Shown piece by piece: positions 31,147 to 45,146 of a stretch of DNA of 64,000 nucleotides. The notes beneath the pieces are model-generated. The model ran no database searches, had not been told where the DNA came from, and saw nothing but the letters and a program-made list of their open reading frames with translations. Made by a program: the position numbers and the translations under genes. Source of the DNA: Parafrankia irregularis (lineage in GTDB: Bacteria > Actinomycetota > Actinomycetes > Frankiales > Frankiaceae); NCBI RefSeq assembly GCF_001536285.1, contig NZ_FAOZ01000016.1, positions 1-64,000 of the forward strand, in the 5' to 3' direction. Numbering within the stretch: the stretch's first letter is position 1; every line of letters starts with the position of its first letter.

Positions 31147-31890
31147 TCAGCCGAACAGGGCCTTGTGGGTGAGCGGGCCGATGACGCCGTCGGGCACCAG
31201 GCCGTGCTTCTTCTGGAAGTCGATGACCATGTGGTTGGTCTGCGGTCCGAAGTAGCCGTCGACGACGATCGGGTAGCCGAGCTTACGCAGCTGGTCCTGC
31301 ACCAGGGAGACATCCCAGCGGGGGCCGGACACGCCCAGCCGCATGTAGCCCGAGTCGACGGCGCGGTTGGCGCTGGCGGACGGCGCGGTGGACACCGTGG
31401 TGCTCACCGAGTTGCCCACGGCCGCGGCTGCCGCGGCTCCACGAGCCAGGTACTTCGTGTGCATGCCGTTGGTGTAGGCGCTCCACGCGGTGATGCCCTG
31501 GCTCTGGCAGACCTGCCGTGCGGCCCAGGCGTTGACGTTCGGGTCGTAGAGGTCGCGGTTTCCGACCCAGCTGGCATGCGCGCGCATGTTGATCTGCCAC
31601 AGGCCGCGGGAGTCCTCACCGACGGTCGCGTGGGCGGTGGTGTTGCCGCCCGACTCGGCGAGCGCGACGGCGACCCAGGTGCTCAGCGGAATTCCGCGGC
31701 AGGAGTTCAGGCCGGCGTTCTTCGCCGCCTGCGCGATGCTGGTGTCCGAGATTACCGCCGCGCTGGCGGGGCTCGCGGTGAGGAACAGGCCGGCGGATGC
31801 CCCGATAACGCTTGCCGCGGCAACAGCAGCGGAGCGACCACGGCCTCGGCGGCGGACGCTGGGGGACTTGCGGTGCTTTCCGGTCGACAT
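31147..31890 (-). CDS. secreted lytic-transglycosylase-like protein with a peptidoglycan-binding domain
   Basis: 247 residues. A basic N-terminus and a hydrophobic segment end in ASPASAAVISD, a Sec signal peptide. The catalytic domain has WVAVALAESGGNTTAHATVGEDSRGLWQINM with the catalytic Glu, as in transglycosylase/SLT or Rpf-like lysozyme folds. The C-terminal about 70 residues are a PG_binding_1 module (VQDQLRKLGYPIVVDGYFGPQT and QKKHGLVPDGVIG). It remodels peptidoglycan outside the cell. ATG 31890 follows a roughly 480-base leader that contains a c-di-AMP riboswitch, the regulator used for cell-wall hydrolases in actinobacteria. TTG 31893 is an alternative start. Confidence 0.92.
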   Translation of the reverse strand: MSTGKHRKSPSVRRRGRGRSAAVAAASVIGASAGLFLTASPASAAVISDTSIAQAAKNAGLNSCRGIPLSTWVAVALAESGGNTTAHATVGEDSRGLWQINMRAHASWVGNRDLYDPNVNAWAARQVCQSQGITAWSAYTNGMHTKYLARGAAAAAAVGNSVSTTVSTAPSASANRAVDSGYMRLGVSGPRWDVSLVQDQLRKLGYPIVVDGYFGPQTNHMVIDFQKKHGLVPDGVIGPLTHKALFG

Positions 31891-32160
31891 CAAGATATCT
31901 CGTTTCTACGTTGAAGAGCAGGCGGGTAGGGCGTCTTCAGGCGCCAACGATCCGTACACGGATCAATGAGTCGCGACGAAATTGGGTCGCGAAAGGCGCG
32001 CGAATGGACGCGCGTTCTGCTATCGGCGTGAAATTTGTCCGGGCCCGAGCGGGCCCCAGATCTCCGGTGTCAACCCCGGGTTACGGGCGCGGCATTACCG
32101 CGGCGGCGTTCCGAGGGACGGATGCAGTCCCGGCTGCTATTCGAAGCATGCGTACACGCA

Positions 32161-32298
32161 GATCCTTCCCGTACGCCTGCGAGGTTAGCTGTCGGGTTCG
32201 GGCCGGGAAGCCCGGTCGGCGCGCGTTGCGCGGCGACTTCACCCCGAGGACGGCCGCCCTGGGTGCGGTGGCCATCCGGAGGAACCTGGTTCCCCCGC
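32161..32298 (-). promoter_or_regulatory. c-di-AMP riboswitch (ydaO-yuaA class)
   Basis: Read on the minus strand, the segment holds the class landmarks in order: GGGGGAACCAGGTTCC, then CGGGGTGAAGTCGCCGCG, then CGAACCCGACAGCTAACC, and finally GGGAAGGATC. The spacing and the invariant GACAGCTAACC match ydaO-type riboswitches that turn off cell-wall hydrolase genes when c-di-AMP is high. The gene downstream is such a hydrolase. Confidence 0.9.
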
Positions 32299-32382
32299 TT
32301 CTGCCCTGGTGGTCACTAGGAGGGGACGACGGGCCTAGGGCAGAACTCGGCGTACGACCCGTCGCTTGTTTGGTGCCAGCAC

Positions 32383-32883: not shown

Positions 32884-34146
32884 TCAGACCCAGCCGGACA
32901 TCGGGTAGGCCGTCATCAGGTCTCGCACCTCGCCGGCGATGCGGCTGATGGTGGTCTCGTCGTCGTCGCCCGCGGCCTTCACGGCCTCGTCGATCCAGCC
33001 CGCCAGCGTCGGCATCTGCTCCGGCTGCAGTCCGCGGGTGGTGATCGCGGCCGTTCCCAGCCGGACGCCGGACGGGTCGAACGGCTTGCGCGGATCGAAC
33101 GGAACGGTGTTGTAGTTGAGCTCGATACCGGCCCGGTCCAGCGCCTTCGCGGCCGGCTTGCCGGCGACGCCACGGCTGGTCAGGTCGATCAGGATCAGAT
33201 GGTTGTCGGTGCCGCCGGTGACGAGGTCGAAACCGCGGGCGGACAGCGCCTCGGCGAGCGCCTTCGCGTTCGCGACGACGCGGTGGGCGTACTCGCGGAA
33301 GTCCGGGGTGGTGGCTTCGCGCAGCGCGACCGCGATGGCGGCGGTCGTGTGGTTGTGCGGGCCGCCCTGCAGGCCTGGGAACACCGCCTTGTCGAGGGCG
33401 GACGCGTGCGCCGCGTCCGACATGATCATCGCGCCGCGGGGCCCGCGCAGGGTCTTGTGCGTGGTGGTGGTGATGACCGGTGCGTGGCCCACGGGCGAGG
33501 GGTGGGCGCCACCGGCGATCAGGCCGGCGATGTGGGAGATGTCCGCCACGAGCACGGCGTCGATCTCGCCCGCGATCGCCGCGAAGGCGGGGAAGTCGAT
33601 GGTGCGGGGGATCGCGGTCCCACCACAGAAGATCACCTTTGGCCGGTGCTGGAGCGCGAGGTCACGCACCTCGTCGAGGTCGACCCGCCCGGTGTCCTGG
33701 CGTACTCCGTACCGGACCCCCTGGAACCAGCGGCCGGTGGCCGACACCGTCCAGCCGTGGGTCAGGTGGCCACCCGAGGGCAGGCCCATGCCCATCACGG
33801 CGTCGCCCGGCTGCAGGAACGCCAGGTAGACGGCCAGGTTGGCGGGCGAGCCCGAATACGGCTGGACGTTCGCGTGCTCGACGCCGAACACCGCCTTCGC
33901 CCGGTCGATCGCCAGGGTCTCGACCGGGTCGATGAACTGCTGGCCCTCGTAGTAGCGCTTGCCGGCGTAGCCCTCGGAGTACTTGTTCGTCAGGACGGAG
34001 CCGGAGGCCTCGAGGACGGCGGTGGAGACGTAGTTCTCGGAGGCGATCAGCCGGATCTTCTCGAACTGGCGCTGGGCCTCGGACTCGACCAGGCCGGCGA
34101 TCTCGGGGTCGCTGGCCGCCAGGTGCGTCATCGCGGGCTCGTGCAT
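32884..34146 (-). CDS. glyA: serine hydroxymethyltransferase
   Basis: 420 residues. Converts serine and tetrahydrofolate to glycine and methylene-THF, the main one-carbon source. PLP Lys in TTTHKTLRGPRG; RLIASENYVS, YAGKRYYEG and GGTDNHLILIDL are family signatures. ATG 34146 has GGAGG 6 bases upstream; TTG 34158 would overlap that site. The leader carries a ZTP riboswitch, so expression rises when ZMP/ZTP signals one-carbon shortage. Confidence 0.97.
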   Translation of the reverse strand: MHEPAMTHLAASDPEIAGLVESEAQRQFEKIRLIASENYVSTAVLEASGSVLTNKYSEGYAGKRYYEGQQFIDPVETLAIDRAKAVFGVEHANVQPYSGSPANLAVYLAFLQPGDAVMGMGLPSGGHLTHGWTVSATGRWFQGVRYGVRQDTGRVDLDEVRDLALQHRPKVIFCGGTAIPRTIDFPAFAAIAGEIDAVLVADISHIAGLIAGGAHPSPVGHAPVITTTTHKTLRGPRGAMIMSDAAHASALDKAVFPGLQGGPHNHTTAAIAVALREATTPDFREYAHRVVANAKALAEALSARGFDLVTGGTDNHLILIDLTSRGVAGKPAAKALDRAGIELNYNTVPFDPRKPFDPSGVRLGTAAITTRGLQPEQMPTLAGWIDEAVKAAGDDDETTISRIAGEVRDLMTAYPMSGWV

Positions 34147-34180
34147 GTGGACCTCCAACGGGCATGCGGCGGACGTCGGA

Positions 34181-34260
34181 GTGCCCAGGCGCGCGGCACC
34201 GCCAGCAGATTCGTCGCTCCCCGGTGGTCACTTCCACCCGAGCACGCCAGTCACGACTGT
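34181..34260 (-). promoter_or_regulatory. ZTP (pfl) riboswitch upstream of glyA
   Basis: On the minus strand it reads GTCGTGACTGGCGTGC, then GTGGAAGTGACCACCGGGGA and, after a linker, CGCGCCTGGGCACTCC. These are the two conserved halves of the pfl motif: P1/P2 with GACUGGC, and the P3 pseudoknot element with CCUGGGC. It ends about 35 bases before the ATG. The first bases overlap the 3' end of the tetR gene, so the glyA promoter must lie inside tetR. Confidence 0.9.
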
Positions 34261-35006
34261 TGCTCTGCATCGTAGTGGGCACGGCCCTGACGCCCCGGAG
34301 GCCTGGACAGTGGACCGCCGTCACCAGGCGCCCGAGGCTCGTCGTGCTCCGCGGCGCACTGACCGCTCAGCGCCTGTCGGGCCTGGTCAGGTCGAAGCGG
34401 TGGCTCGGGCAGCGGGTGGGCGGCCTCGGCGCGCAGGCCGTCCAGCATGATCGCGAGATGGCGTCGCCAGGCGCGGGGCGCGACGGCCGCGGTCGCCTCG
34501 ACGGTGCGCGCGTGGCCCCACAGGACGAAGGCCATGTCCTCCAGGGTGATGTCCGCGCGCAGGACCGCGGCCTCCTGGGCCCGCACGATGACCTGCCGCA
34601 TCAGCTCATAGCCGCGGGCCCGGGCCTGCTCGGCGGCGCCGCGCAGCGGCAGTGCCCGGGAGACGACGTCGTTGTAGCCGAGGTCGGCGGCCTGCAGCTC
34701 GCAGGTCTGTTCGAGCAGGAGGACGAGCGCCTGCCACGGGTCGTCCATGTCGAGCGCCGCTTCGGCGATGCGCACACTCGCCGCGACCCGGTCGGCGAAC
34801 ACGGCGTCGACGAGGTGGCCACGGGTCGGGAACCGGTTGTACAGCGTGCCGATGCTCACCCGGGCGCGGCGGGCGATCTCCTCCAGGGGGACGTCGACGC
34901 CGCGCTCGGCGAACAGCTCGCGCGCGGCGGTGATCAGCTGCTCGCGGTTGCGGCGTGCGTCTCTGCGCAGGCCGGGCTCGTCTTCTGTCGGGGTCAATGT
35001 CCTCAC
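34251..35006 (-). CDS. TetR-family transcriptional regulator
   Basis: 251 residues. The N-terminal helix-turn-helix reads ITAARELFAERGVDVPLEEIARRARVSIGTLYNRFPTRGHLVDAVF. The C-terminal ligand domain is of the SACE_7040-like type (VLLLEQTCELQA, RAQEAAVLRADITLEDMAFVLWG). The last about 40 residues are a Pro/Gly/Arg-rich tail. It is divergent from an SDR gene, with palindromic CCTCAAGTT/AACTTGAGG sites between them, so it probably represses both. Confidence 0.92.
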   Translation of the reverse strand: MRTLTPTEDEPGLRRDARRNREQLITAARELFAERGVDVPLEEIARRARVSIGTLYNRFPTRGHLVDAVFADRVAASVRIAEAALDMDDPWQALVLLLEQTCELQAADLGYNDVVSRALPLRGAAEQARARGYELMRQVIVRAQEAAVLRADITLEDMAFVLWGHARTVEATAAVAPRAWRRHLAIMLDGLRAEAAHPLPEPPLRPDQARQALSGQCAAEHDEPRAPGDGGPLSRPPGRQGRAHYDAEQQS

Positions 35007-35108: not shown

Positions 35109-35942
35109 GTGGACGTGGGCAGATTCGTCATCTCGGGGGGAACTGACGGCATCGGGCGGGCCCTGGCCCTGCACTACCTGCGGGCAGGTGCCGACGTCGT
35201 GGTCATCGGCCGCAGCGAGGAGAAGTTCCGCCGCCTGGTCGCCGAGGCCGGCGGCGGCGTCAGTGGCGTCAGTGGCGCCGGGGTGGCCCATTTCGTCGAG
35301 GCGGACCTGGCGCTCGCCGCGGAGAACCGCCGTGTCGTCGTCGAGGTCGCCGAGAGGTTCCCCGAGATCGACGCACTCATCCTCTGCGCGGCCTACCTGC
35401 GCACCACCCGCACCGTCACGGCGGAGGGTCTCGAGCACACCTTCGCCCTCTACTACCTGAGCCGCTACCTGCTCAGTCACGGCCTGGCCGACCGCCTTGA
35501 GGCCGCCGACCGGCCGGTGGTTCTGAACACCTCGGTGCCAGGTGCGTCCCGCGACGCGGTGAGGTGGGGAGACCTGCAGCTTGACCGCCGGTTCACCGCC
35601 CGGCGCGCCAACCAGCAGAGCCGGCGCGCCAACGAGCTGCTCGGCCTGATGTTGCGTGCGCGCCCGGCGGGTCGAATCCGTCACGTGCTCTACAACCCCG
35701 GCTTCGTGCGCACCAGCCATGCGGGCGCGCTGAGCCGGCCGGCACGGGCGCTGGTGTCGGCGCTGGCCGCGGTCGCCGCCACCCCGGTCGACCGGGCGGT
35801 CGAACCGATCGTCGAGCTGATCGATCAGCCTCCGGAGTGCCAGGTGTCGGCCTACCGGCGCCGGCATCGGCTGCGGCTGAGCGCGGCAGCCGCCGACATC
35901 GCCGAGGCGGAGCGCTTGCGGAGCGTAACCGGTCGACTGTGA
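35109..35942 (+). CDS. SDR-family protein lacking the catalytic Tyr-Lys
   Basis: 277 residues. Nucleotide-binding motif ISGGTDGIGRALALHYL, a CAA in place of NNAG, and a Ser-containing strand VVLNTSVPGAS. At the active-site YxxSK position the sequence is NQQSR (ANQQSRRANELLG), so both Tyr and Lys are replaced. It may bind NAD(P)(H) or use other residues, but ordinary SDR catalysis is unlikely. GTG 35109 has GGGGAG upstream. It belongs to the regulon of the divergent TetR. Confidence 0.85.
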   Translation: MDVGRFVISGGTDGIGRALALHYLRAGADVVVIGRSEEKFRRLVAEAGGGVSGVSGAGVAHFVEADLALAAENRRVVVEVAERFPEIDALILCAAYLRTTRTVTAEGLEHTFALYYLSRYLLSHGLADRLEAADRPVVLNTSVPGASRDAVRWGDLQLDRRFTARRANQQSRRANELLGLMLRARPAGRIRHVLYNPGFVRTSHAGALSRPARALVSALAAVAATPVDRAVEPIVELIDQPPECQVSAYRRRHRLRLSAAAADIAEAERLRSVTGRL

Positions 35943-36098
35943 TTACTCCCCGTCGCGTATAGAGATTCTCTGTTGGTTGTTGTGACTGCCTGTCGACAGG
36001 GTTGACAAGGTTTCAGCGGCAGATCTCTACGGTGCGTGGTGAGATGGATGCGTACGGGTGGCTCGGAGCTTGTGAAATAGATCGCTCAGTTGTAGTGA

Positions 36099-36128
36099 TT
36101 GACGTTTTACCTGGTCATCGGGCATTCT
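36099..36128 (+). promoter_or_regulatory. candidate promoter of the leader peptide
   Basis: TTGACG (36099-36104), 18-base gap, CATTCT (36123-36128). The start point would fall at or next to the leader ATG (36135), making the leader mRNA leaderless. Confidence 0.45.
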
Positions 36129-36134
36129 TCACCT

Positions 36135-36209
36135 ATGCGGTGGACATACACCGGCGTGGCGCGCCGCTACGTCGACCTCGTGCGGATCGCCAGCGCCCTC
36201 TGTCGCTAG
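36135..36209 (+). CDS. 24-aa cysteine leader peptide (upstream ORF)
   Basis: ATG 36135 to TAG 36209. The peptide contains RRYVDLVRIASALCR immediately before the stop. This is the actinobacterial sulfur-gene leader signature (Arg-Arg-His/Tyr-Val-Asp-Leu, then a terminal Cys-Arg). Ribosome behaviour at the near-terminal Cys codon is thought to couple cysteine supply to downstream expression. A hairpin begins 16 bases after its stop. It stands 449 bases ahead of the transporter operon. Confidence 0.82.
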   Translation: MRWTYTGVARRYVDLVRIASALCR

Positions 36210-36224
36210 TCGTCGACGGCGTCC

Positions 36225-36245
36225 GGTGCCACGCTCCGTGGCACC
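36225..36245 (+). terminator. candidate attenuator hairpin after the leader peptide
   Basis: Perfect 8-bp arms GGTGCCAC and GTGGCACC with a 5-base loop, starting 16 bases beyond the leader stop codon. Confidence 0.55.
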
Positions 36246-36657
36246 CCGCCAGGTGTGCCTGGTCCTCTCCACCGGGTCCGGGTTGATGTAGGTAGCCACC
36301 GTCCGTCACCGGTGGACAGGTCGGGCACCCGCGCCCGTGCCAGCTGTACAGCCGGTCCCGAGATGCCTGCTGCCGGCATTTCGTATGCCGCTGGCATTGT
36401 CGTCCGCCTCCCGTCGGTGGACGTCGCTCCACCGCCCCCGTTCCGTGTTCCTCGTCCGCCGCGGCGTCATCAGACGCCTGCGCGGCCCTGCCCGCGCCCT
36501 GCCTGAGAACGTCCCGTGCCCTGCCACCGCCGGGTCGTGTCTTCGGCGCGCCCGTAACCGACCGGCATCCGTGCCGGTCGGCACCCTGCCATGCCTGACT
36601 TCCGCCTGACTTCTTCGCCGCACGCCTGACGTTTCTCATGCCTGAGAGGACCAACCC

Positions 36658-38250
36658 GTGAGTACCCCGAGGACGACCTTCCTGAGTTCCGCCTCGTCAC
36701 CTGAGCCGGCGGCGCCGGTGATGGGGCGACGTGGGTTCCTGCGCCTGGGGGCGCTGGCCGGAGGCTCGATCCTGCTGGCGGCGTGCGGGGGCGGCGGTGA
36801 CTCGGCCTCGGGTGGCAGCACCAGCGGGGGCACCCTGCGCTGGGGATGGGCGCTGGTCACCTCCTGGGACCCGATCACGTCGTCGGCCGGGTGGGACGTC
36901 CACGCCCTCTCGCTGGTCTACGCGGGCCTGACGAAGCTGGACGAGAAGGCGAACCCGGTGCCCGCGCTCGCCAGCTCCTGGGAGTACAGCGCTGACGGCA
37001 CGTCGGTCACCTTCCACCTGCGTTCCGGGCTCACGTTCAGCGACGGCACCGCGGTGGACGCCGCCGCCGTCAAGAAGAGCCTCGAGCGTGGCCGGGACGC
37101 GAAGAACTCGTTGGTGGCCGCCCAGCTCGCCAGCCTCAAGGAGGTCGTGGCGGTCGACGCGACGACCGTCCGCATCGACCTGAAGAACACCGACTACCAG
37201 CTGCCCGCCATTCTCGCCGGCAAGACCGGGATGATCGTCAGCCCGAAGGCCATCGACACCGACGAGAAGGGGCTGGCGACCAGGCCGGTCGGCGCCGGGC
37301 CGTTCCAGCTGAACTCCTACGTGCCCAACGACAGCGCGAAGCTGACGCGCTTCGCCGGCTACTGGGACGCCGCCAACATCAAGCCGGACAACTTCGAGCT
37401 CTACCCGGCGCCCGAGGCCGCCACCGCCCTCGCGTCGCTCCAGTCGGGCCGCCTCGACGTCGCCATGATCCCCGCGTCGCAGCTCACCGCGGTCAAGGCC
37501 GCCGGGTTCGAGGTGCAGGTCATCTCATCGCTGGTCATCAGCGTGCTCGACGTCAACAACACGGTGGCTCCGTTCGACAACCCCAAGGTCGTCCAGGCGA
37601 TCAAGCACGCGGTCGACCGGAAGGCACTGGTGGACACCGTCAACTTCGGTGTCGGCGAGGTCAACTACCAGCCGTTCCCGAAGGGGCACGCCGGGCACAA
37701 CGCCGCCCTGGAGAACGCCTACCCGTACGACGTGGCCAAGGCCAAGAAGCTGCTCGCCGAGGCCGGGCACCCGGACGGCATCGACGTCACGCTCACCACC
37801 ACGGTCGCCGAGGGGCTGCCCGAGCAGGTCCAGGCGCAGCTCGCCAAGGCCGGGATCCGGGTCAAGCTGGAGGTCATCCCGCAGGCCCAGGCGACCCAGC
37901 AGGTCTACATCCAGCGGGCGAAGCCGTTCTTCACCGACCAGTTCGCCGGGCGGGAGAGCCCCGTGCAGGCGTTCCAGGTGCTCTTCGGCGACCAGGGCCT
38001 GATGAACCCGGGCCGGACCAACCCGCCGGCGCTCAAGGAGGCGGTCGCGAAGATCACCGCGACGCCGCTGGACGACCCGAACTACGCGTCCGTCGTGCAG
38101 GCGGCGACGAAGGTCGCCGTGGAGAACATGCCCAACGTCTTCCTCTTCAGCAACCCGCGGATCCTGGCCCGTCGCTCGAACGTGTCGCCGGTCGGCAGCT
38201 ACCTGATGGCGCAGCGGTTCGAGGGCGTCACCGTGACCGGGAACAGCTGA
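36658..38250 (+). CDS. ABC transporter substrate-binding lipoprotein (SBP family 5, peptide/nickel type)
   Basis: 530 residues. The signal region contains twin-arginine MGRRGFLRLGALAGGS and a lipobox LLAAC with Cys43, so the mature protein is a membrane-anchored lipoprotein, perhaps Tat-exported. Family 5 features are GGTLRWGWALVTSWDPI, YAGLTKLDEKANPVPALASSWE and FHLRSGLTFSDGT. GTG 36658 has GAGAGGA upstream. It is the first gene of a five-gene importer followed by two SsuD-like monooxygenases. The substrate is therefore probably an organosulfur compound or peptide rather than nickel; that is context inference. Confidence 0.93.
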   Translation: MSTPRTTFLSSASSPEPAAPVMGRRGFLRLGALAGGSILLAACGGGGDSASGGSTSGGTLRWGWALVTSWDPITSSAGWDVHALSLVYAGLTKLDEKANPVPALASSWEYSADGTSVTFHLRSGLTFSDGTAVDAAAVKKSLERGRDAKNSLVAAQLASLKEVVAVDATTVRIDLKNTDYQLPAILAGKTGMIVSPKAIDTDEKGLATRPVGAGPFQLNSYVPNDSAKLTRFAGYWDAANIKPDNFELYPAPEAATALASLQSGRLDVAMIPASQLTAVKAAGFEVQVISSLVISVLDVNNTVAPFDNPKVVQAIKHAVDRKALVDTVNFGVGEVNYQPFPKGHAGHNAALENAYPYDVAKAKKLLAEAGHPDGIDVTLTTTVAEGLPEQVQAQLAKAGIRVKLEVIPQAQATQQVYIQRAKPFFTDQFAGRESPVQAFQVLFGDQGLMNPGRTNPPALKEAVAKITATPLDDPNYASVVQAATKVAVENMPNVFLFSNPRILARRSNVSPVGSYLMAQRFEGVTVTGNS

Positions 38251-38252
38251 CC

Positions 38253-39338
38253 ATGACCACCCTCGACGTCGTCGGCTCCGGAGGACGGGGCCAACCGGAG
38301 CCGTCGCAGCCGTCGCAGCCGTCGCGGCCGTCGCGGCTTCCGGGGGGCGCGGGCCTGCTGCGCCGCTGGCGCCCATCGGGCCTGTCCGGGCTGGCCCGTG
38401 GCCTCGGGCAACTGCTGGCGGTGGGGGTGCCGGTGACACTGCTGGCCACCTTCATCACCTACGGCATGACCGCACTCACCGACAGCAACCCGGCTGCGAC
38501 CGTGCTCGGGGATCTCGCCACGCCGCAGGACATCGAGCGGATGAACCACCAGTTCGGGCTGGACCGGCCGTTCCTCGTCCAGTACGTGAGCTGGCTCGGC
38601 AACGCGCTCACCGGGGATCTCGGCTACTCCTACTTCACCACCCTGCCGGTGCGGGACAGCGTCGCGCAGGCCCTGCCGGTCGACCTGTCGATCACGCTGG
38701 TGGCCGCGGTGGTCGCCATCCTCGTCGGCGGGGTGACCGGGATCGCGGCGGCGCTGAACAACGGCGGGCGGCTCGACCGCGCGGTCACGGCGGTGTGCGC
38801 AGTGGCGTCGACCATCCCGCCGTTCGTCGTCGGGATCGGTCTGATCATCCTGTTCGCGGTGACGGTGCCCGTGCTGCCCTCCGGCGGCTACGTGCCGTTC
38901 ACCGAGGACCCCGGTCAGTGGCTGAAGTTCGTGATCCTGCCGGGGATCGCCCTCAGCGTGGAGTTCGGTGCGGAGCTCACGCGCCAGATCCGCACCTCCC
39001 TGGTGGGCACCCTGCGGGAGAACTTCGTGACCGGTGCCACCGTGCGGGGGCTGTCGGTGCGCAGGGTCGTGTTCGGCCATGCGCTGCGCAACGCCGTCGG
39101 ACCGGCGCTGACCGTTGTCGGCCTGTACGTGCCGCGGCTGATCGGCGGTGCGGTTGTCGCCGAGGCGGTCTTCAACCTGCCCGGTCTGGGGCAGCAGGCG
39201 CTGCAGGCCGCCGAGCGCGGTGACATTCCCGTCATCCAGGGCGTTCTCGTCACCTCGATCGCACTGGTTCTGGTCTGCAACGTCGCGGTCAACGTGGCGC
39301 TGGTGCGGCTCCGCCCCGCCGCGGAGCGGCGATCATGA
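38253..39338 (+). CDS. ABC transporter permease (DppB/OppB type)
   Basis: 361 residues. A Pro/Ser-rich cytoplasmic N-terminus precedes six helices. Permease features are MNHQFGLDRPFLVQYVSWLGNALTGDLGYS and the EAA coupling loop VRGLSVRRVVFGHALRNAVGPALTVVG. It starts 2 bases after the binding-protein stop and overlaps the next permease by 4 bases. Confidence 0.93.
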   Translation: MTTLDVVGSGGRGQPEPSQPSQPSRPSRLPGGAGLLRRWRPSGLSGLARGLGQLLAVGVPVTLLATFITYGMTALTDSNPAATVLGDLATPQDIERMNHQFGLDRPFLVQYVSWLGNALTGDLGYSYFTTLPVRDSVAQALPVDLSITLVAAVVAILVGGVTGIAAALNNGGRLDRAVTAVCAVASTIPPFVVGIGLIILFAVTVPVLPSGGYVPFTEDPGQWLKFVILPGIALSVEFGAELTRQIRTSLVGTLRENFVTGATVRGLSVRRVVFGHALRNAVGPALTVVGLYVPRLIGGAVVAEAVFNLPGLGQQALQAAERGDIPVIQGVLVTSIALVLVCNVAVNVALVRLRPAAERRS

Positions 39339-40312
39339 GCGTGCTGCGCCGGATGATCCGGCTGCGTTCGGTGCGCCTCGCCCTGCTGGTCCTCGCCGTC
39401 GTCGCCGTCCTCGCGGTCGCCGGCGGCTCGCTCGCGCCGCAGGACCCGATCGCCCAGGACCCGAAGGCGATCCTGCAGAACCCGAGCGGCGCCCACTGGC
39501 TGGGCACCGACTACCTGGGCCGCGACGTGCTGAGCCGGCTGATGGACGCCACCGGCCGCTCGGTGGTCGGCGCGGCCGAGGCGGTCGGCGTCGGGCTCCT
39601 GCTCGGTGCGCCCGCGGGGCTGGCGTCGGTGGTGTTCGGCCGGGCCTTCGAATGGCTCGCGCTGCGGATCAGCGACGCGCTGCTCACCCTGCCCTACATC
39701 ATCTTCGCGATCGCGGTCACCGGGATCATCGGCAACGGCATCCACCAGGCGATGCTCGCGATCGGCCTGGTGCTCGCCCCGAACTACTTCCGGATCACCC
39801 GGGCCGCGACGCTCGGCCTGGCCTCCTCCCAGTACGTCGAGATCGCCGAGCTGGTCGGGGCGTCCCGCTGGTGGATCCTGCGGACGCACATCTGGAACAA
39901 GGTGCTGCCCACCATCGTGGTGACCGCGGCGAGCGGGGCGGCGGCGTCGCTGCTGGTGGTCTCGTCGCTGTCGTTCCTCGGCATCGGGACGAAGCCTCCC
40001 GCGCCCACCTGGGGCGGAATGCTCTCGTCGGACCTGAACTACCTCGCCCAGCGGCCCTGGGCACCGCTCGCGCCCTCACTGGTGATCATCATCACGGTGG
40101 CTGCGCTGAACGCGCTCGCGGACGCGCTCCGTGACACCACCGGCATCGTCACCGGCGATCCCGGTGGCAGCGGCCGTGCCCGCGGCGGCGACTCCGCCGA
40201 CACAGCCCAGACCAGCTCCGCCGCGACGGCCACGGCCACCGGGCCCGTCGAGACCACCGCGGTGGCGACGTCCTCCATACCCCGGCAGAACCGGGAGGTG
40301 CGCGATGCCTGA
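39335..40312 (+). CDS. ABC transporter permease (DppC/OppC type)
   Basis: 325 residues. The N-terminal helix is followed by LGTDYLGRDVLSRLMDATGRS, the DppC signature. The EAA loop is VEIAELVGASRWWILRTHIWNKVLPTIVVT. The last about 50 residues are an extra Ala/Thr/Ser-rich tail after the final helix. Overlaps the ATPase gene by 8 bases. Confidence 0.93.
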   Translation: MSVLRRMIRLRSVRLALLVLAVVAVLAVAGGSLAPQDPIAQDPKAILQNPSGAHWLGTDYLGRDVLSRLMDATGRSVVGAAEAVGVGLLLGAPAGLASVVFGRAFEWLALRISDALLTLPYIIFAIAVTGIIGNGIHQAMLAIGLVLAPNYFRITRAATLGLASSQYVEIAELVGASRWWILRTHIWNKVLPTIVVTAASGAAASLLVVSSLSFLGIGTKPPAPTWGGMLSSDLNYLAQRPWAPLAPSLVIIITVAALNALADALRDTTGIVTGDPGGSGRARGGDSADTAQTSSAATATATGPVETTAVATSSIPRQNREVRDA

Positions 40313-41372
40313 CGACCTGCTTCGGGTCGAGGACCTGAACATCACCGTCGGCGGCGCGCCGTTCGGGCGGCGCCGGCGCGCCCGCGACGTCGGCGGAGTC
40401 CCCGCAGTGCAGGGAGTCTCGTTCACCGTCCGGCGCGGCGAGGCGGTGGGGTTCGTCGGCGAGTCCGGCAGCGGCAAGACCCTGACCTGCCGGGCCGCCC
40501 TCGGCGTTCTCGCGCCCGGCTGCACGGTCAGCTCCGGTGAGATCGACTTCGACGGGACGTCTCTCGTCGACCTGCCCCGGCGCCGCTGGGACGGGCTGCG
40601 CGGCACCCGCATCGGTGCGGTCTTCCAGGATCCCGGCTCGTACCTCAACCCATCCCACACGGTGGGCCGCCAGCTCGCCGAGCAGTTCCGGATCAAGGTC
40701 GGGCATCGCCGCCGCGAAGCCCGCCAGGCCGCGATCGCGCTGCTCGGCACGCTCGGCCTGCACCAGCCCGAGCTGGTCTACCACCAGTACCCGCACGAGC
40801 TGTCCGGCGGCATGCTGCAACGGGTCGTGCTCGCGATCGCCGTCGCCGGTGAGCCGGACCTGCTCGTCGCCGACGAGGCGACGACCGCGCTCGACGTCAC
40901 CGTGCAGGCGGAGGTGCTGGAGGCGCTGGACCTGCTGCGCGCCGAGCGCGGCCTGGCGATCCTCGCCGTCTCCCACGACCTTGCCGTGATCGCGCAGCTC
41001 TGCGACCGGATCCTGGTCTTCTACGCCGGCGAGATCGTCGAGGCCGGGCCCACGGCGGACGTCCTGGCGAACCCGCGCCACCCCTACACGGCGGCGCTGC
41101 TGCGAGTCGCCTCCGTCGGTGACTGGCGGCGCCGTGAGCTGGACGTCATCGACGGTGCCGCGCCACCGGTGGGCGCGCGGATCACCGGCTGCCGGTTCGC
41201 CGACCGCTGCGCCTTCGTCACCGACGCCTGCCGCGCGGCGCCGGTGGAGCTGCGGGCGGTGCCGGACGCGCCGGCCGGTACGCCCGGGGGAGAGCGGTTC
41301 GCGCGGTGCGCCCGGCTGGGCGAGATCGAACTGACGCCCCGTGTCCCCGAGCGAGCAGGAGCACCCGCATGA
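40305..41372 (+). CDS. ABC transporter ATP-binding protein (DppD type)
   Basis: 355 residues. Walker A GESGSGKTL, signature LSGGMLQRVVLAIAV, Walker B LLVADEATTALDV. The C-terminal oligopeptide-transporter module has NPRHPYTAALLR and the Cys-rich CRFADRCAFVTDACR, which in Dpp-type ATPases binds an iron-sulfur cluster. ATG 40305 lies inside the end of the previous gene; the longer frame to 40131 is its shadow. Confidence 0.93.
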   Translation: MPDDLLRVEDLNITVGGAPFGRRRRARDVGGVPAVQGVSFTVRRGEAVGFVGESGSGKTLTCRAALGVLAPGCTVSSGEIDFDGTSLVDLPRRRWDGLRGTRIGAVFQDPGSYLNPSHTVGRQLAEQFRIKVGHRRREARQAAIALLGTLGLHQPELVYHQYPHELSGGMLQRVVLAIAVAGEPDLLVADEATTALDVTVQAEVLEALDLLRAERGLAILAVSHDLAVIAQLCDRILVFYAGEIVEAGPTADVLANPRHPYTAALLRVASVGDWRRRELDVIDGAAPPVGARITGCRFADRCAFVTDACRAAPVELRAVPDAPAGTPGGERFARCARLGEIELTPRVPERAGAPA

Positions 41373-42805
41373 ACGCCACCAGGACCGCCGTTGTCACGGA
41401 GCCGTTCCCGGATGGTTCCGCGGAACCGCATCCGGACGGTTCCGCGGAACCGGTTCCGGTGGCTGCCGCGGCGCCGCTGCTGGACGTCCGTGGCCTGACC
41501 GTCTCCTTCCGGGCCCGTAGCGGGCCGGGACGGCGCACGACCGTCCTGCGGGACGTCTCGCTGGCCGTCCGTCCCGGCGAGATCGTCGGCGTCATCGGCG
41601 AGACCGGATCGGGCAAGACCACCCTCGCCCGCGCAATCGCCGGTCTGACCCGGACCGACGCCGGTGAGGTCGAGGTCGACGGCCGGGACGTCCGCGGCCT
41701 GCGCCGCCGTGCCCGCCGGGACTTCCGCCGCAGCGGTGCCATCCGCTTCGTCTTCCAGGACCCGCTACGCGCCCTCGATCCCGATCTCACGATCGGCACC
41801 AGCATCGCCGAGGGGCTGGCCGTCGCCGGCCGCGGCAGCCGCGACGACCGCCGCGCGGCCGTCTCCGACGCGCTGCGCAGGGTCGGCCTCGACCCCGCGG
41901 TGGCGGACCGCCTGCCCGGGGCGATCTCCGGGGGCCAGCGGCAGCGGGCGTCCATCGCCCGCGCGATCGTCGACGACCCGCGGCTGCTCATCTGTGACGA
42001 GCCCGTCAGCGCGCTGGACGGATCGAACCGCAACCTCATCCTTCGGCTGCTGGACGGGCTGCGCCGTCAGCCCGCCGATCTCGCCCATCCTGCCGTTTCC
42101 GCCGGCGTAGCCGATGCGGACCCTGGCCGTGGCCGGCTGGGGATCATCATCATCTCGCACGACCTGAGCTCGCTCGCCGGCATCGCGGACCGGGTCGTCG
42201 TCCTCTACCGCGGCCGCGTAGTCGAGGACGGCCCGATCGCCGAGGTGTTCGACCGGCCGCGGCATCCCTACACCGCGCTGCTGATCGCCTCGGCACCGAG
42301 CATCCGCGACGAGGACGGCCCGACCCCGCCGCAGCTGCGGCGGCCCGCCGGCGGACCGGGTGCCGAGCGGCGGCCCGCCGACGCCTGCGGCTTCGCGCAC
42401 CGGTGCCCCTTCGCCACCGACGCCTGCGACCACACCCCTGCCGCGCTGCCCGCCGCGGCGGGCTGGACCGTCGCCTGCCATCACACCGAGACCTGGCGGT
42501 CCTCGCTACCAGCAGCATCGCTGCCGGTGACATCGCCACCGGCGGTCGCGCCACCGGCGGCCTCGCTGCTGGCGGCGCGACCGCCGGCGGCTTCACTGCC
42601 GGCGGACCTCGACCTGCCGGTCCGGCGCCGCGACGCCGCCAGGCCGTCGATCTCCGCCGCCGCGGGGCCGGGAGCGACTGCCACTTCCACCGCACCTGCC
42701 AGCGCACCCGCCGCGGCATCCTCCACCGCACCTGCCCCCGCGCGCGCCGCGGTCGACGCGGTCGACGCGGGTGCGGCGCTGACCGCCCTGTCCACAAAGG
42801 AGTGA
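41369..42805 (+). CDS. ABC transporter ATP-binding protein (DppF type)
   Basis: 478 residues. Walker A GETGSGKTT, signature ISGGQRQRASIARAI, Walker B LLICDEPVSALD, and C-terminal RPRHPYTALLIAS with the Cys motif CGFAHRCPFATDACDH. Two oddities: the N-terminus has a duplicated Asp-Gly-Ser-Ala-Glu-Pro made by palindromic DNA (41414-41451), and about 110 Ala/Pro-rich residues follow the functional end. Another insertion (about 220-245, AHPAVSAGVADADPGRG) sits before the H-loop. It overlaps its neighbour by 4 bases. Confidence 0.92.
   Translation: MNATRTAVVTEPFPDGSAEPHPDGSAEPVPVAAAAPLLDVRGLTVSFRARSGPGRRTTVLRDVSLAVRPGEIVGVIGETGSGKTTLARAIAGLTRTDAGEVEVDGRDVRGLRRRARRDFRRSGAIRFVFQDPLRALDPDLTIGTSIAEGLAVAGRGSRDDRRAAVSDALRRVGLDPAVADRLPGAISGGQRQRASIARAIVDDPRLLICDEPVSALDGSNRNLILRLLDGLRRQPADLAHPAVSAGVADADPGRGRLGIIIISHDLSSLAGIADRVVVLYRGRVVEDGPIAEVFDRPRHPYTALLIASAPSIRDEDGPTPPQLRRPAGGPGAERRPADACGFAHRCPFATDACDHTPAALPAAAGWTVACHHTETWRSSLPAASLPVTSPPAVAPPAASLLAARPPAASLPADLDLPVRRRDAARPSISAAAGPGATATSTAPASAPAAASSTAPAPARAAVDAVDAGAALTALSTKE
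41414..41451. repeat. two GGTTCCGCGGAACC palindromes 24 bp apart
   Basis: Copies at 41414-41427 and 41438-41451 inside the DppF-type gene, in frame. Each encodes Gly-Ser-Ala-Glu-Pro, as does the copy in hypF. Confidence 0.9.
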
Positions 42806-42811
42806 ACAACG

Positions 42812-43936
42812 ATGTCCGTTGAGTTCATCGGGATGGTTTCCACCTCGGCCGGGAGCGAGTCCCAGGGCTCGACCGGCCCCGTTGTCGACCCGGACTACCT
42901 GGACGGGTTCGTCCGCGCCCATGAGGAAGCCGGCTTCGACCGGGTGCTGGTCGCGCACGCCTCCTTCATGCCGGACGGTTTCGTCGTCGCCGACCAGATC
43001 CTCGCCCGCTCGAAGAAGCTCGGCGTCCTGCTCGCGCACCGGCCCGGTTTCGTCGCCCCGACCATCGCCGCGCGCAAGTACGCCACCATCGACGCGTTCA
43101 ACCCCGGCCGCATCGCCCTGCACGTCATCACCGGTGGGGACGACGCCGACCAGGCCCGCGACGGCGACCTCACCGACAAGGCCACCCGCTACCGGCGCAC
43201 CGACGAGTTCCTCGACATCCTGCGGCGCGAGTGGGAGTCGGCCGCCCCGTTCGACTACGACGGCGACTTCTACCAGATCCGCGGCGCCTGGTCGGCGGTG
43301 CGCCCGCCCGCCGGACGCATCCCGATCTACTTCGGTGGCGCCTCCGACGACGCGGTACGGGTCGGCGGGAAGCACGCCGACGTCTACGCGTTCTGGGGCG
43401 AGCCGCTGGCCGGGATCGTCGAGCGCATCCGGCAGGTCCGGGCCGCCGCCGCCCCGTACGGGCGTGACCCGCGGTTCAGTGTCAGCCTGCGGCCCATCCC
43501 CGCCGACACCGAGCAGGCCGCCTGGGACCGTGCCGCCGAGATCCTGGAGCTCACCCGGGAACGCAGCGCCGACATCCAGAAGTTCCTGAAGGGCTCCGAG
43601 CAGGTCGGCAGCCAGCGGCTGCTGAAGTACGCCGACGAGGGCGACGTCCACGACAAGCGGCTGTGGACCGCCATCGCCAAGGTGACCGGCGCCGTCGGCA
43701 ACTCCACCGCGCTGGTCGGCAGCTACGAGCAGGTCGCAGAGGCGCTCGTCGACTACGTGAACGTCGGCGTCTCAACGCTGCTCATCCGCGGCTTCGACCC
43801 GGTCGCCGACGCCCGGGACTACGGCAGCCTGGTGAAGCTCGTCCACGAGCGGACCGCCGACCGTGACCCCGTCACCGGCTCCGGCTCCGGCACACCGGCT
43901 GTGACCGCGCCCGCCGCGGCCCCGGCGTCCGTCTGA
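42812..43936 (+). CDS. SsuD-like LLM-class flavin-dependent monooxygenase
   Basis: 374 residues, TIM-barrel luciferase-like. VLLAHRPGFVAPTIAARKYATID and RIALHVITGGDDADQARDGD are SsuD-type signatures of alkanesulfonate monooxygenases, which cleave C-S bonds with FMNH2 and O2 to release sulfite. ATG 42812 has AAGGAG 10 bases upstream, directly after the transporter genes. It is about half identical by eye to the next gene, so the pair arose by tandem duplication. The reduced flavin could come from the reductases at 51017-51508 or 57909-58580. Confidence 0.9.
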   Translation: MSVEFIGMVSTSAGSESQGSTGPVVDPDYLDGFVRAHEEAGFDRVLVAHASFMPDGFVVADQILARSKKLGVLLAHRPGFVAPTIAARKYATIDAFNPGRIALHVITGGDDADQARDGDLTDKATRYRRTDEFLDILRREWESAAPFDYDGDFYQIRGAWSAVRPPAGRIPIYFGGASDDAVRVGGKHADVYAFWGEPLAGIVERIRQVRAAAAPYGRDPRFSVSLRPIPADTEQAAWDRAAEILELTRERSADIQKFLKGSEQVGSQRLLKYADEGDVHDKRLWTAIAKVTGAVGNSTALVGSYEQVAEALVDYVNVGVSTLLIRGFDPVADARDYGSLVKLVHERTADRDPVTGSGSGTPAVTAPAAAPASV

Positions 43937-43979: not shown

Positions 43980-45146
43980 ATGGCCATCGAGATCCTCGGC
44001 ATGGTGGGAACCAAGGAGGTGTCGGAGACCCGCGGCTCGTACTTCGACGGCCCCGCGGTCGACGCCGCCTACCTGACCCGGTTCGCGCAGGCGCATGACG
44101 AGGCCGGCTTCGACCGTGTCCTCATCGGCTACGGGGCGACGGCACCCGACGGGTTCGCCGTCGCCGGCCACGTGCTGGCGCACACCCGGCGCCTCGGCGT
44201 GCTCATCGCGCACCGGCCCGGCTTCGTCGCGCCGACCCTGGCCGCCCGCAAGCTCGCCACCCTCGACCAGCTCAGCGGTGGTGGACGGGTCGCCATCCAC
44301 CACATCTCCGGCGGCAACGACGCCGACCAGCGCCGCGACGGCGACTTCGCCGACCACGACACCCGCTACGCGCGCACCGCGGAGTTCATGGACGTCCTGC
44401 GGCGCACGCTCACCTCCGACGCGCCGTTCGACCACGAGGGGCCGTTCTACCGGTTCGAAGGCGCCTACAGCTCGGTGAAGCCGGCGACCGCCGCCGGCAT
44501 CCCGCTGTTCTTCGGCGGGCAGTCCGAGGCGGCCGTCGAGGTGGGTGCCCGGCACGCGGACGTCTACATGCTGTTCGGTGAGCCGCTCGAACAGACCGCG
44601 GAGCGCATCGCCCTGCTGCGCGCCCAGGCGGCGAAGCACGGCCGCACGCTGCGCTTCAGCCTCTCCACCCGGCCGATCGTCGCCGCGACGGAGGAAGCCG
44701 CCTGGGCCCGTGCCGAGACGATCGCCGCCGAGACCCGCCGCCGCGCCGAGGCCGCGCGGGTGAGCGCGGCACTGGTCGCCGGGCCAGCCGGGTCATCGGG
44801 GCCAGCGGGGTCGGCGGGGTCGGCTGCGGCGGGCAGGGCGCTGTTCGCGACGTCCGGCTCTGTGGCGTCCGCCCGGCTGCAGGAGGTGGCGGCCCGCCAG
44901 CAGGTGTACGACGAGCGCCTCTGGTTCGGCGTCACCGCGCTGACCGGCCCCGGCGGCAACTCCTCCGGCCATGTCGGCACCCCACAGCAGGTCGCCGACG
45001 CGCTGCTGCGCTACCACGAGATCGGCGTCGACACGTTCCTCATCCGCGGCTTCGACCCCTACGACGACGTCGTCGACTGGGGCAGGGAGCTGATTCCCGC
45101 CCTGCGGGCCGGCGCCTCCCGCGCACGCGAGGTGGTCCACTCCTGA
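43980..45146 (+). CDS. SsuD-like LLM-class flavin-dependent monooxygenase, tandem paralogue
   Basis: 388 residues. Same motifs as its neighbour (VLIAHRPGFVAPTLAARKLATLD, RVAIHHISGGNDADQRRDGD). A Gly/Ala/Ser-rich insertion (about residues 264-285) lengthens the variable loop near the substrate pocket. ATG 43980 has AGGAG 5 bases upstream. Probably attacks a related sulfonate or sulfone. A hairpin follows the stop. Confidence 0.9.
   Translation: MAIEILGMVGTKEVSETRGSYFDGPAVDAAYLTRFAQAHDEAGFDRVLIGYGATAPDGFAVAGHVLAHTRRLGVLIAHRPGFVAPTLAARKLATLDQLSGGGRVAIHHISGGNDADQRRDGDFADHDTRYARTAEFMDVLRRTLTSDAPFDHEGPFYRFEGAYSSVKPATAAGIPLFFGGQSEAAVEVGARHADVYMLFGEPLEQTAERIALLRAQAAKHGRTLRFSLSTRPIVAATEEAAWARAETIAAETRRRAEAARVSAALVAGPAGSSGPAGSAGSAAAGRALFATSGSVASARLQEVAARQQVYDERLWFGVTALTGPGGNSSGHVGTPQQVADALLRYHEIGVDTFLIRGFDPYDDVVDWGRELIPALRAGASRAREVVHS

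Follow-up and report, generated by a model that had tools for sequence, protein, structure and literature searches.

A 24-codon reading frame with a single cysteine codon precedes an ABC importer operon in Parafrankia. How might so short a frame bring the genes behind it under the control of cysteine supply, and what, if anything, does its one cysteine codon contribute? These questions were pursued in a stretch of 64,000 nucleotides (the window, at its full length), in the genome to which it belongs and in related genomes. Positions are those of the window unless a contig is given.

The leader ORF and the genes behind it

The 24-aa upstream ORF reported in an initial annotation of this DNA is present exactly as described (MRWTYTGVARRYVDLVRIASALCR; 36135–36209, forward strand; ATG at 36135, stop codon TAG at 36207–36209), and its C-terminal sequence is RRYVDLVRIASALCR. 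The annotation had also recognised the signature of an actinobacterial sulfur-gene leader, and comparison with protein models bears this out: the peptide scores 29.7 bits (E 3.4e-7) against NCBIfam NF042934 ('putative leader peptide', cis_reg_atten), where the curated cut-off is 27, and members of this family are found mainly ahead of sulfur genes. With NF042934 the peptide shares the core R-x-x-V-D-L-x-R-x-x-S-x-x-C. It contains a single Cys, a run of consecutive Cys codons being absent, and against NF042936 (the Ms4527A family, a Cys-rich leader) it reaches 19.7 bits, below the cut-off of 45. Judged by its sequence, the ORF encodes a leader peptide beyond chance and belongs to NF042934: it is a fresh member of a known, little-explained leader family.

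The ORF lies 448 nt 5' of an importer operon that includes two SsuD-like genes. The first gene (36658–38250, forward strand) encodes a family-5 solute-binding protein (SBP; PF00496, E 1.2e-76) of an Opp/Nik/Gsi-type ABC importer; it begins with GTG, the sole in-frame start past the last in-frame stop, and its best NCBIfam equivalogs, GsiB and NikA, both score far below cut-off. Behind it, on the same strand, come two permeases (38253–39338 and 39335–40312; PF00528), two ATPases (40131–41372 and 41306–42805; PF00005 and PF08352) and two SsuD/SfnG-like luciferase-type monooxygenases (42812–43936 and 43980–45146; PF00296). These domain matches agree with the peptide/nickel-type transporter and SsuD-like genes named in the initial annotation. 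Against TIGR03565 the two monooxygenases score 196.7 and 211.5 bits, below the cut-off of 518, and are therefore not SsuD in the strict sense; they fall far short of the SfnG equivalog cut-off as well. Organosulfur import and desulfonation is the probable function predicted for the operon.

The Parafrankia genome (9.5 Mb, 82 contigs) holds seven matches to NF042934, five of them over the cut-off. One is the leader of the window importer operon (L005); the others stand ahead of a rhodanese (L001), a ROK-family regulator followed by a TauD dioxygenase (L002/L213; G000:C20:65500-71200), a sulfite/nitrite reductase (L003), a winged-helix regulator (L004/L214), a TauD dioxygenase (L006) and a luciferase-type monooxygenase that lies 865 nt from its leader (L007/L216). 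Across this genome and its relatives, 71 downstream ORFs – picked by length and a GC3 rule, some starts or frames being surely wrong – include 30 matches to rhodanese (a share owed in part to the sampling of best-scoring leaders), 5 to sulfite/nitrite reductase, 5 to luciferase-type monooxygenase, 3 to Cys/Met PLP enzymes, 3 to family-5 SBPs, 2 to TauD and 1 each to sulfatase, PAPS reductase and TauE. A further 7 of the 71 match ROK regulators, which may be a common part of the leader-linked sulfur regulon. Leader cores also occur as divergent pairs within ~275 bases (G195:C89:243385 (−)/243628 (+), G134:C520:3768 (−)/3886 (+) and G026:C251:3248 (−)/3429 (+)), an arrangement in which one type of sensor might control the operons on either side.

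The claim that the leader marks the transporter and SsuD-like genes as sulfur-regulated is carried by this family membership, from which a place in a sulfur or cysteine regulon appears likely. In Frankia-group actinobacteria the leader would thereby assign an Opp-type importer that has yet to be characterised, together with two SsuD-like enzymes, to a likely cysteine regulon, a placement that the importer and SsuD-like sequences alone could not give.

Conservation of the leader was followed at orthologous operons. A search of 296 genomes of the class for relatives of the SBP gave 33 genomes with a match at E <= 1e-60, and named genomes supplied 46 loci; four pairs of loci (L034/L064, L036/L070, L038/L065 and L055/L071) were each judged, by contig numbers, coordinates and sequence, to be from the same genome. 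The leader is present in 16 of the 16 evaluable genomes in which SBP identity is at least 60% (17 distinct genomes, the seventeenth, L055/L071, having been left out of the count with its 81 nt of upstream sequence). Named carriers at this level of identity are Parafrankia, Frankia, Dactylosporangium and Streptacidiphilus, the others being of the window's family f1, and the closest named relative found, in a set from which the record of the window itself may be missing, is Parafrankia sp. EUN1f (L063), with an SBP identity of 96%. A length of 24 aa is common to 21 of the 28 orthologous leaders (17 distinct at the DNA level). More distant SBP relatives in families f19 and f18 also have the leader; it is absent at five operons with monooxygenases (L218–L222, SBP identity 47–52%), at L069 and L229, and at several loci of 35–41% identity. 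Plasmid records gave no match.

Two of these loci depart from the common arrangement. At L068, where 561 nt separate the core Cys from the SBP start, CR is no longer followed by a stop and translation would continue for 14 codons, the UGU of the core being intact: this locus is a natural test of whether the position of the stop matters. At L073 (Streptacidiphilus) a second leader, of the HVDLLRVSSALC type and also with UGU, lies on the same strand 7471 nt upstream of the SBP start. An association between leader and monooxygenase was considered and is not upheld, since the leader occurs at 13 of 20 evaluable loci where a monooxygenase match is present and at 4 of 12 where there is none (L071, with 81 nt upstream, was excluded; L233 is one more weak candidate; for 3 of the 12 the contig is short or cut).

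A promoter-like pair, TTGACG (36099–36104) and CATTCT (36123–36128), stands ahead of the leader on the forward strand. The −35-like box is kept in all 28 orthologous loci (25 distinct; the start at L060 was set 24 nt upstream, at the orthologous ATG): TTGAC lies at −36 (18 loci) or −37 (3 loci) from the leader start in 21 of them, and TTGGAC at −38 in the remaining 7, which are all seven f19 loci. Such conserved spacing is as a leaderless transcript requires. The mRNA is probably leaderless, as had been proposed from the same pair, with a predicted start at or adjoining A36135. A generic sigma-70 consensus scan around the leader returned 0 promoters and left the window pair unscored.

Selection on the peptide and a near-invariant cysteine codon

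Constraint on the leader is unevenly spread along its length. Among the 16 distinct 24-aa leaders pN/pS is 0.32 at residues 8–24 (36156–36206, forward strand) vs 1.19 at residues 2–7. When the distinct leaders of every subfamily are numbered back from the core Cys, Asp stands at position −9 in 72/72, Val or Ile at position −10 in 72/72 and Arg at position −6 in 71/72, and the conserved residues are encoded with synonymous variation (GAC 53, GAT 19; GTC 28, GTG 21, GTT 6; CGC 50, CGG 15, CGT 4). The peptide itself is thus under selection, at residues 8–24 but not at residues 2–7. Because a mere reader of Cys codons needs no such conservation of residues, the nascent chain is probably part of leader function; we propose that the constrained part acts in the exit tunnel.

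The core Cys of the window leader is codon 23, TGT (UGU in the mRNA; 36201–36203, forward strand), which is the proposed stall site. Among the best-scoring 60 family-HMM loci of longer lists, all of which have the core Cys, that codon is TGT in 53 of 53 distinct leaders, and it is TGT in 72 of 72 once orthologous leaders are added, counts that are not independent events since leaders are related within families. Elsewhere in the same best-scoring leaders, over the stretch that begins 4 residues ahead of the core and ends at the stop, Cys is encoded 56 times by TGC and 14 times by TGT. The background is 46 TGC and 2 TGT in 30 downstream ORFs, and 25 TGC and 4 TGT in twelve genes of the window.

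A search at the level of DNA gave a similar picture. The pattern fixed the D, L, R, V, S and L codons of the core by their first two bases, or by three with Y, and ended in TGT or TGC. Ending in TGT it has 78 matches, in 61 of 393 genomes and 19 genera; ending in TGC it has 1 match, in 1 of 393; the reversed-pattern control gave 0 and 1 matches in the same 393 genomes. Thirty of the 78 TGT matches were inspected as loci, and every one is a short leader-like frame. The sole UGC leader found (L167, 1528–1530, in an f46 genome) is genuine and stands ahead of a sulfite/nitrite reductase gene: UGU is therefore strongly preferred, not absolutely required. That the leader ends in a Cys signature had been seen in the initial annotation and holds; the near-invariant UGU, the selection on the peptide and the C-rich RNA downstream had been overlooked.

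Why should the codon be UGU? Choice between isoacceptors is rejected for the Parafrankia genome: one tRNA-Cys gene, with anticodon GCA, is present among the 46 tRNA genes found, and the single tRNA-Cys(GCA) serves both codons. To assess pairing of the RNA, 20 block shuffles were made for each of 96 leaders. Complementarity between the Cys region and the 200 nt downstream does not exceed that in the shuffles (mean z −0.01, n = 96), which leaves pairing unsupported as a reason for UGU; the RxxS region shows no pairing with the downstream RNA either (z −0.05), and the VDL stretch shows a weak signal (z −0.26, p 0.02). The simplest account left, we infer, is that UGU is read more slowly through wobble, at a step which the nascent chain has already primed.

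The noteworthy point is that a selected peptide goes together with a synonymous codon that hardly ever varies. The literature searched did not mention the UGU rule; it may be in print, in Canestrari 2020 or elsewhere. Together, the near-invariant codon and the selected peptide pose a testable question – can a nascent chain tune the ribosome to one synonymous codon? – and, if so, one codon could serve as the sensor for which other attenuators employ runs.

RNA between leader and importer

A perfect 8-bp hairpin had been reported 16 bases after the leader stop. The hairpin exists (GGTGCCACG/CGTGGCACC; 36225–36245, forward strand), with a perfect stem that is in fact 9 bp, a 3-nt loop (CTC) and a start 15 bases past the stop; what does not stand is a working role for it. 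When the dinucleotides of the 5'UTR were shuffled 300 times, 4 of the shuffled sequences had a perfect stem of at least 8 bp that starts in the first 40 nt, which makes the hairpin somewhat unusual. Over the first 60 nt past the leader at 28 orthologous loci it is whole only in the window locus (L033); L063 retains 6 of its pairs as perfect pairs, and some other loci have different stems of 6–7 bp. As a terminator or antiterminator the hairpin is rejected: it has no U-tract, it is unconserved, and orthologous leaders manage without it. A second perfect hairpin (36558–36581, forward strand; 10 bp, loop of 4) lies close to the importer start. Within 35900–36700 there are 0 terminator-like sites, a classical trp-type intrinsic terminator with a U-tract being absent, and a stable fold of the whole leader RNA is unconvincing (z −1.63; 14 of 200 shuffles were equally stable).

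Rfam models at gathering score gave no match in the leader region; the only matches are two elements elsewhere in the window, both ordinary and both on the reverse strand. One is a ZMP/ZTP riboswitch (RF01750, 56.3 bits, 34176–34264), with a serine hydroxymethyltransferase gene (32884–34158; PF00464) just 3' of it on the same strand; the other is a c-di-AMP riboswitch (RF00379, 50.8 bits, 32160–32321), behind which a gene (31147–31893) encodes a lysozyme-like protein with a peptidoglycan-binding domain.

The composition of the 5'UTR bears on a possible output step. The 448 nt between leader and importer (36210–36657, forward strand) are rich in C and poor in G: C minus G is +0.112, a value attained by 0.9% of 2544 overlapping same-size windows taken from both strands of the window. 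In the 150 nt past the leader stop C exceeds G in 91 of 101 leaders (mean +0.114), a set that includes related and pattern-found leaders and, where the 5'UTR is short, segments that extend into the gene. The regions upstream of the same leaders have a mean of −0.013, 39 of 101 being positive (paired Wilcoxon p 4e-16 vs downstream), and generic 5' regions a mean of +0.031, with 54 of 90 positive. The 5'UTR is a candidate Rho-loading region, for which the excess of C over G is weak evidence, since generic 5' regions lean slightly the same way. For mycobacterial cysteine leaders without terminators Rho was suggested by Seliverstov 2005 (PMC1262725), in what that paper itself describes as a rather weak prediction.

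Other loci have much less RNA in this interval. A plausible importer start lies ~105–118 nt past the leader stop at 6 of the 7 f19 loci and at L066 (Dactylosporangium); L045 has an additional possible start at 61 nt, and L044 and L067 gave none. Spacing as short as this offers Rho little space to act in the same way, and loci with short 5'UTRs may rely on another output step, perhaps control of translation as in M. smegmatis. For the polycysteine leaderless ORFs of that species Canestrari is said to have described translational attenuation in 2020.

A model of control and the alternatives to it

Our main reading, to which we give a probability of about 0.55, is that a leaderless, cysteine-responsive attenuator of the NF042934 type controls the probable organosulfur import and desulfonation operon. 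It builds on what is seen directly: the leader and its conservation, the selection on the peptide, the UGU rule, the spacing of the promoter box, the C-rich 5'UTR and the sulfur setting. RNA polymerase would start at or beside the leader AUG, and a ribosome would translate the 24-residue leader. With residues 8–22 in the upper exit tunnel and a G–U wobble to be read at UGU codon 23, that step would become very sensitive to the supply of Cys-tRNA. When cysteine is plentiful, UGU would be passed, termination would follow two codons on and ~450 nt of untranslated, C-rich and G-poor RNA would be exposed; Rho would load on the exposed 5'UTR and the operon would be off. When Cys-tRNA is scarce, the ribosome would stall at UGU, cover the RNA round the stop codon and exclude Rho, and the operon would be transcribed. 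A generalisation to the whole family is offered more tentatively: NF042934 leaders might be nascent-chain-assisted tRNA sensors, in which one fixed, wobble-decoded UGU gauges Cys-tRNA (or the thiolation of tRNA-Cys) in place of codon runs, the same sensor being joined to varied outputs, such as Rho where a C-rich 5'UTR is long and control of translation where the 5'UTR is short.

Of the alternatives, plain translational attenuation at a hungry codon survives best, although we think it somewhat unlikely for this locus. A ribosome stalled at Cys would free a hidden ribosome-binding site of the next gene, and the sequence of the peptide would be irrelevant. Attenuation of this kind is described for the polycysteine leaderless ORFs of M. 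smegmatis (PMC9031893, PMC13236596), and the shorter leader-to-gene spacing in f19 and in one Dactylosporangium orthologue would suit it. The window leader, however, has one Cys, 448 nt separate the leader from the importer start, its residues are under selection well before that Cys, and leader and downstream RNA show no general complementarity, the weak VDL signal being the one departure.

Selection on those residues would be at home in a true arrest peptide, which would respond, as TnaC does to tryptophan, to a small molecule, be it free cysteine or some sulfur metabolite, the position of UGU then setting geometry only. Strong conservation of the peptide with synonymous freedom, and the constant position of the stop within the 24-aa subfamily, are both in keeping with such a sensor; it would leave the fixed synonymous Cys codon unexplained, however, and in other subfamilies the distance from Cys to stop varies widely. 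We regard this explanation as unlikely.

Two further proposals concern the codon itself. The U of UGU might be fixed for a reason of RNA or transcription, such as a pause site or a protein site, and not for decoding: its neighbours AGC and CTC are fixed as well in the window subfamily (17 of 17 sequences distinct at the DNA level). Across the family, by contrast, the neighbours vary (CTC, CTG, TTG, GCC, GGC), and with no pairing signal to set beside them this proposal is quite improbable. Alternatively, UGU might read the sulfur state of tRNA-Cys, if loss of the methylthio group at A37 (added by way of MiaB) slows the wobble reading of UGU more than the reading of UGC. There is precedent in E. 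coli, where hypomodification of tRNA A37 relieves trp attenuation, and the Parafrankia genome has a single tRNA-Cys(GCA) and encodes MiaB (TIGR01574, 456.6 bits, cut-off 355.3); yet the MiaB family is widespread, with a match in 14 of 14 control genomes (over the cut-off in 9), so that its presence says little, and we rate this proposal as very improbable. Finally, it is scarcely credible that the leader arose by chance or survives as a relic, with no regulatory role at the importer operon: the lost stop of L068 and the five distant monooxygenase operons that lack a leader would fit such a view, but 16 of 16 evaluable close orthologous operons keep the leader, with near-fixed box spacing and constrained C-terminal residues.

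How does the proposed cysteine-responsive attenuator compare with known systems? Its likeness to NF042934 consists in a score over the cut-off and a shared core; NCBIfam names an attenuator leader and gives no mechanism, and a model built on protein sequences has no means of expressing the codon rule. TnaC, the leader of the E. coli tna operon, senses free tryptophan and induces a catabolic operon, its stalled ribosome keeping Rho off. The attenuator proposed here would be like TnaC in that a ribosome stalled near the leader stop would exclude Rho, and would differ in its signal, which is free tryptophan for TnaC and, as proposed for the window, a shortage of Cys-tRNA. The uORFC-8-2 motif ahead of cysS in Rhodobacterales is alike in that Cys codons of a uORF are thought to sense Cys-tRNA; according to that report (PMC8632094), UGC dominates there and an intrinsic terminator lies behind, whereas here it is UGU that dominates, and no terminator was seen. 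Cysteine leaders of mycobacteria were treated in Seliverstov 2005 (PMC1262725) and Shell 2015 (PMC4633059). The polycysteine leaders of mycobacteria and the leader of the window have in common a short ORF (leaderless in mycobacteria, probably so in the window), Cys near the stop, sulfur genes behind and no conserved terminator; the window differs from them in having one Cys and not a run, a selected core, a long C-rich 5'UTR and an importer of the Opp type.
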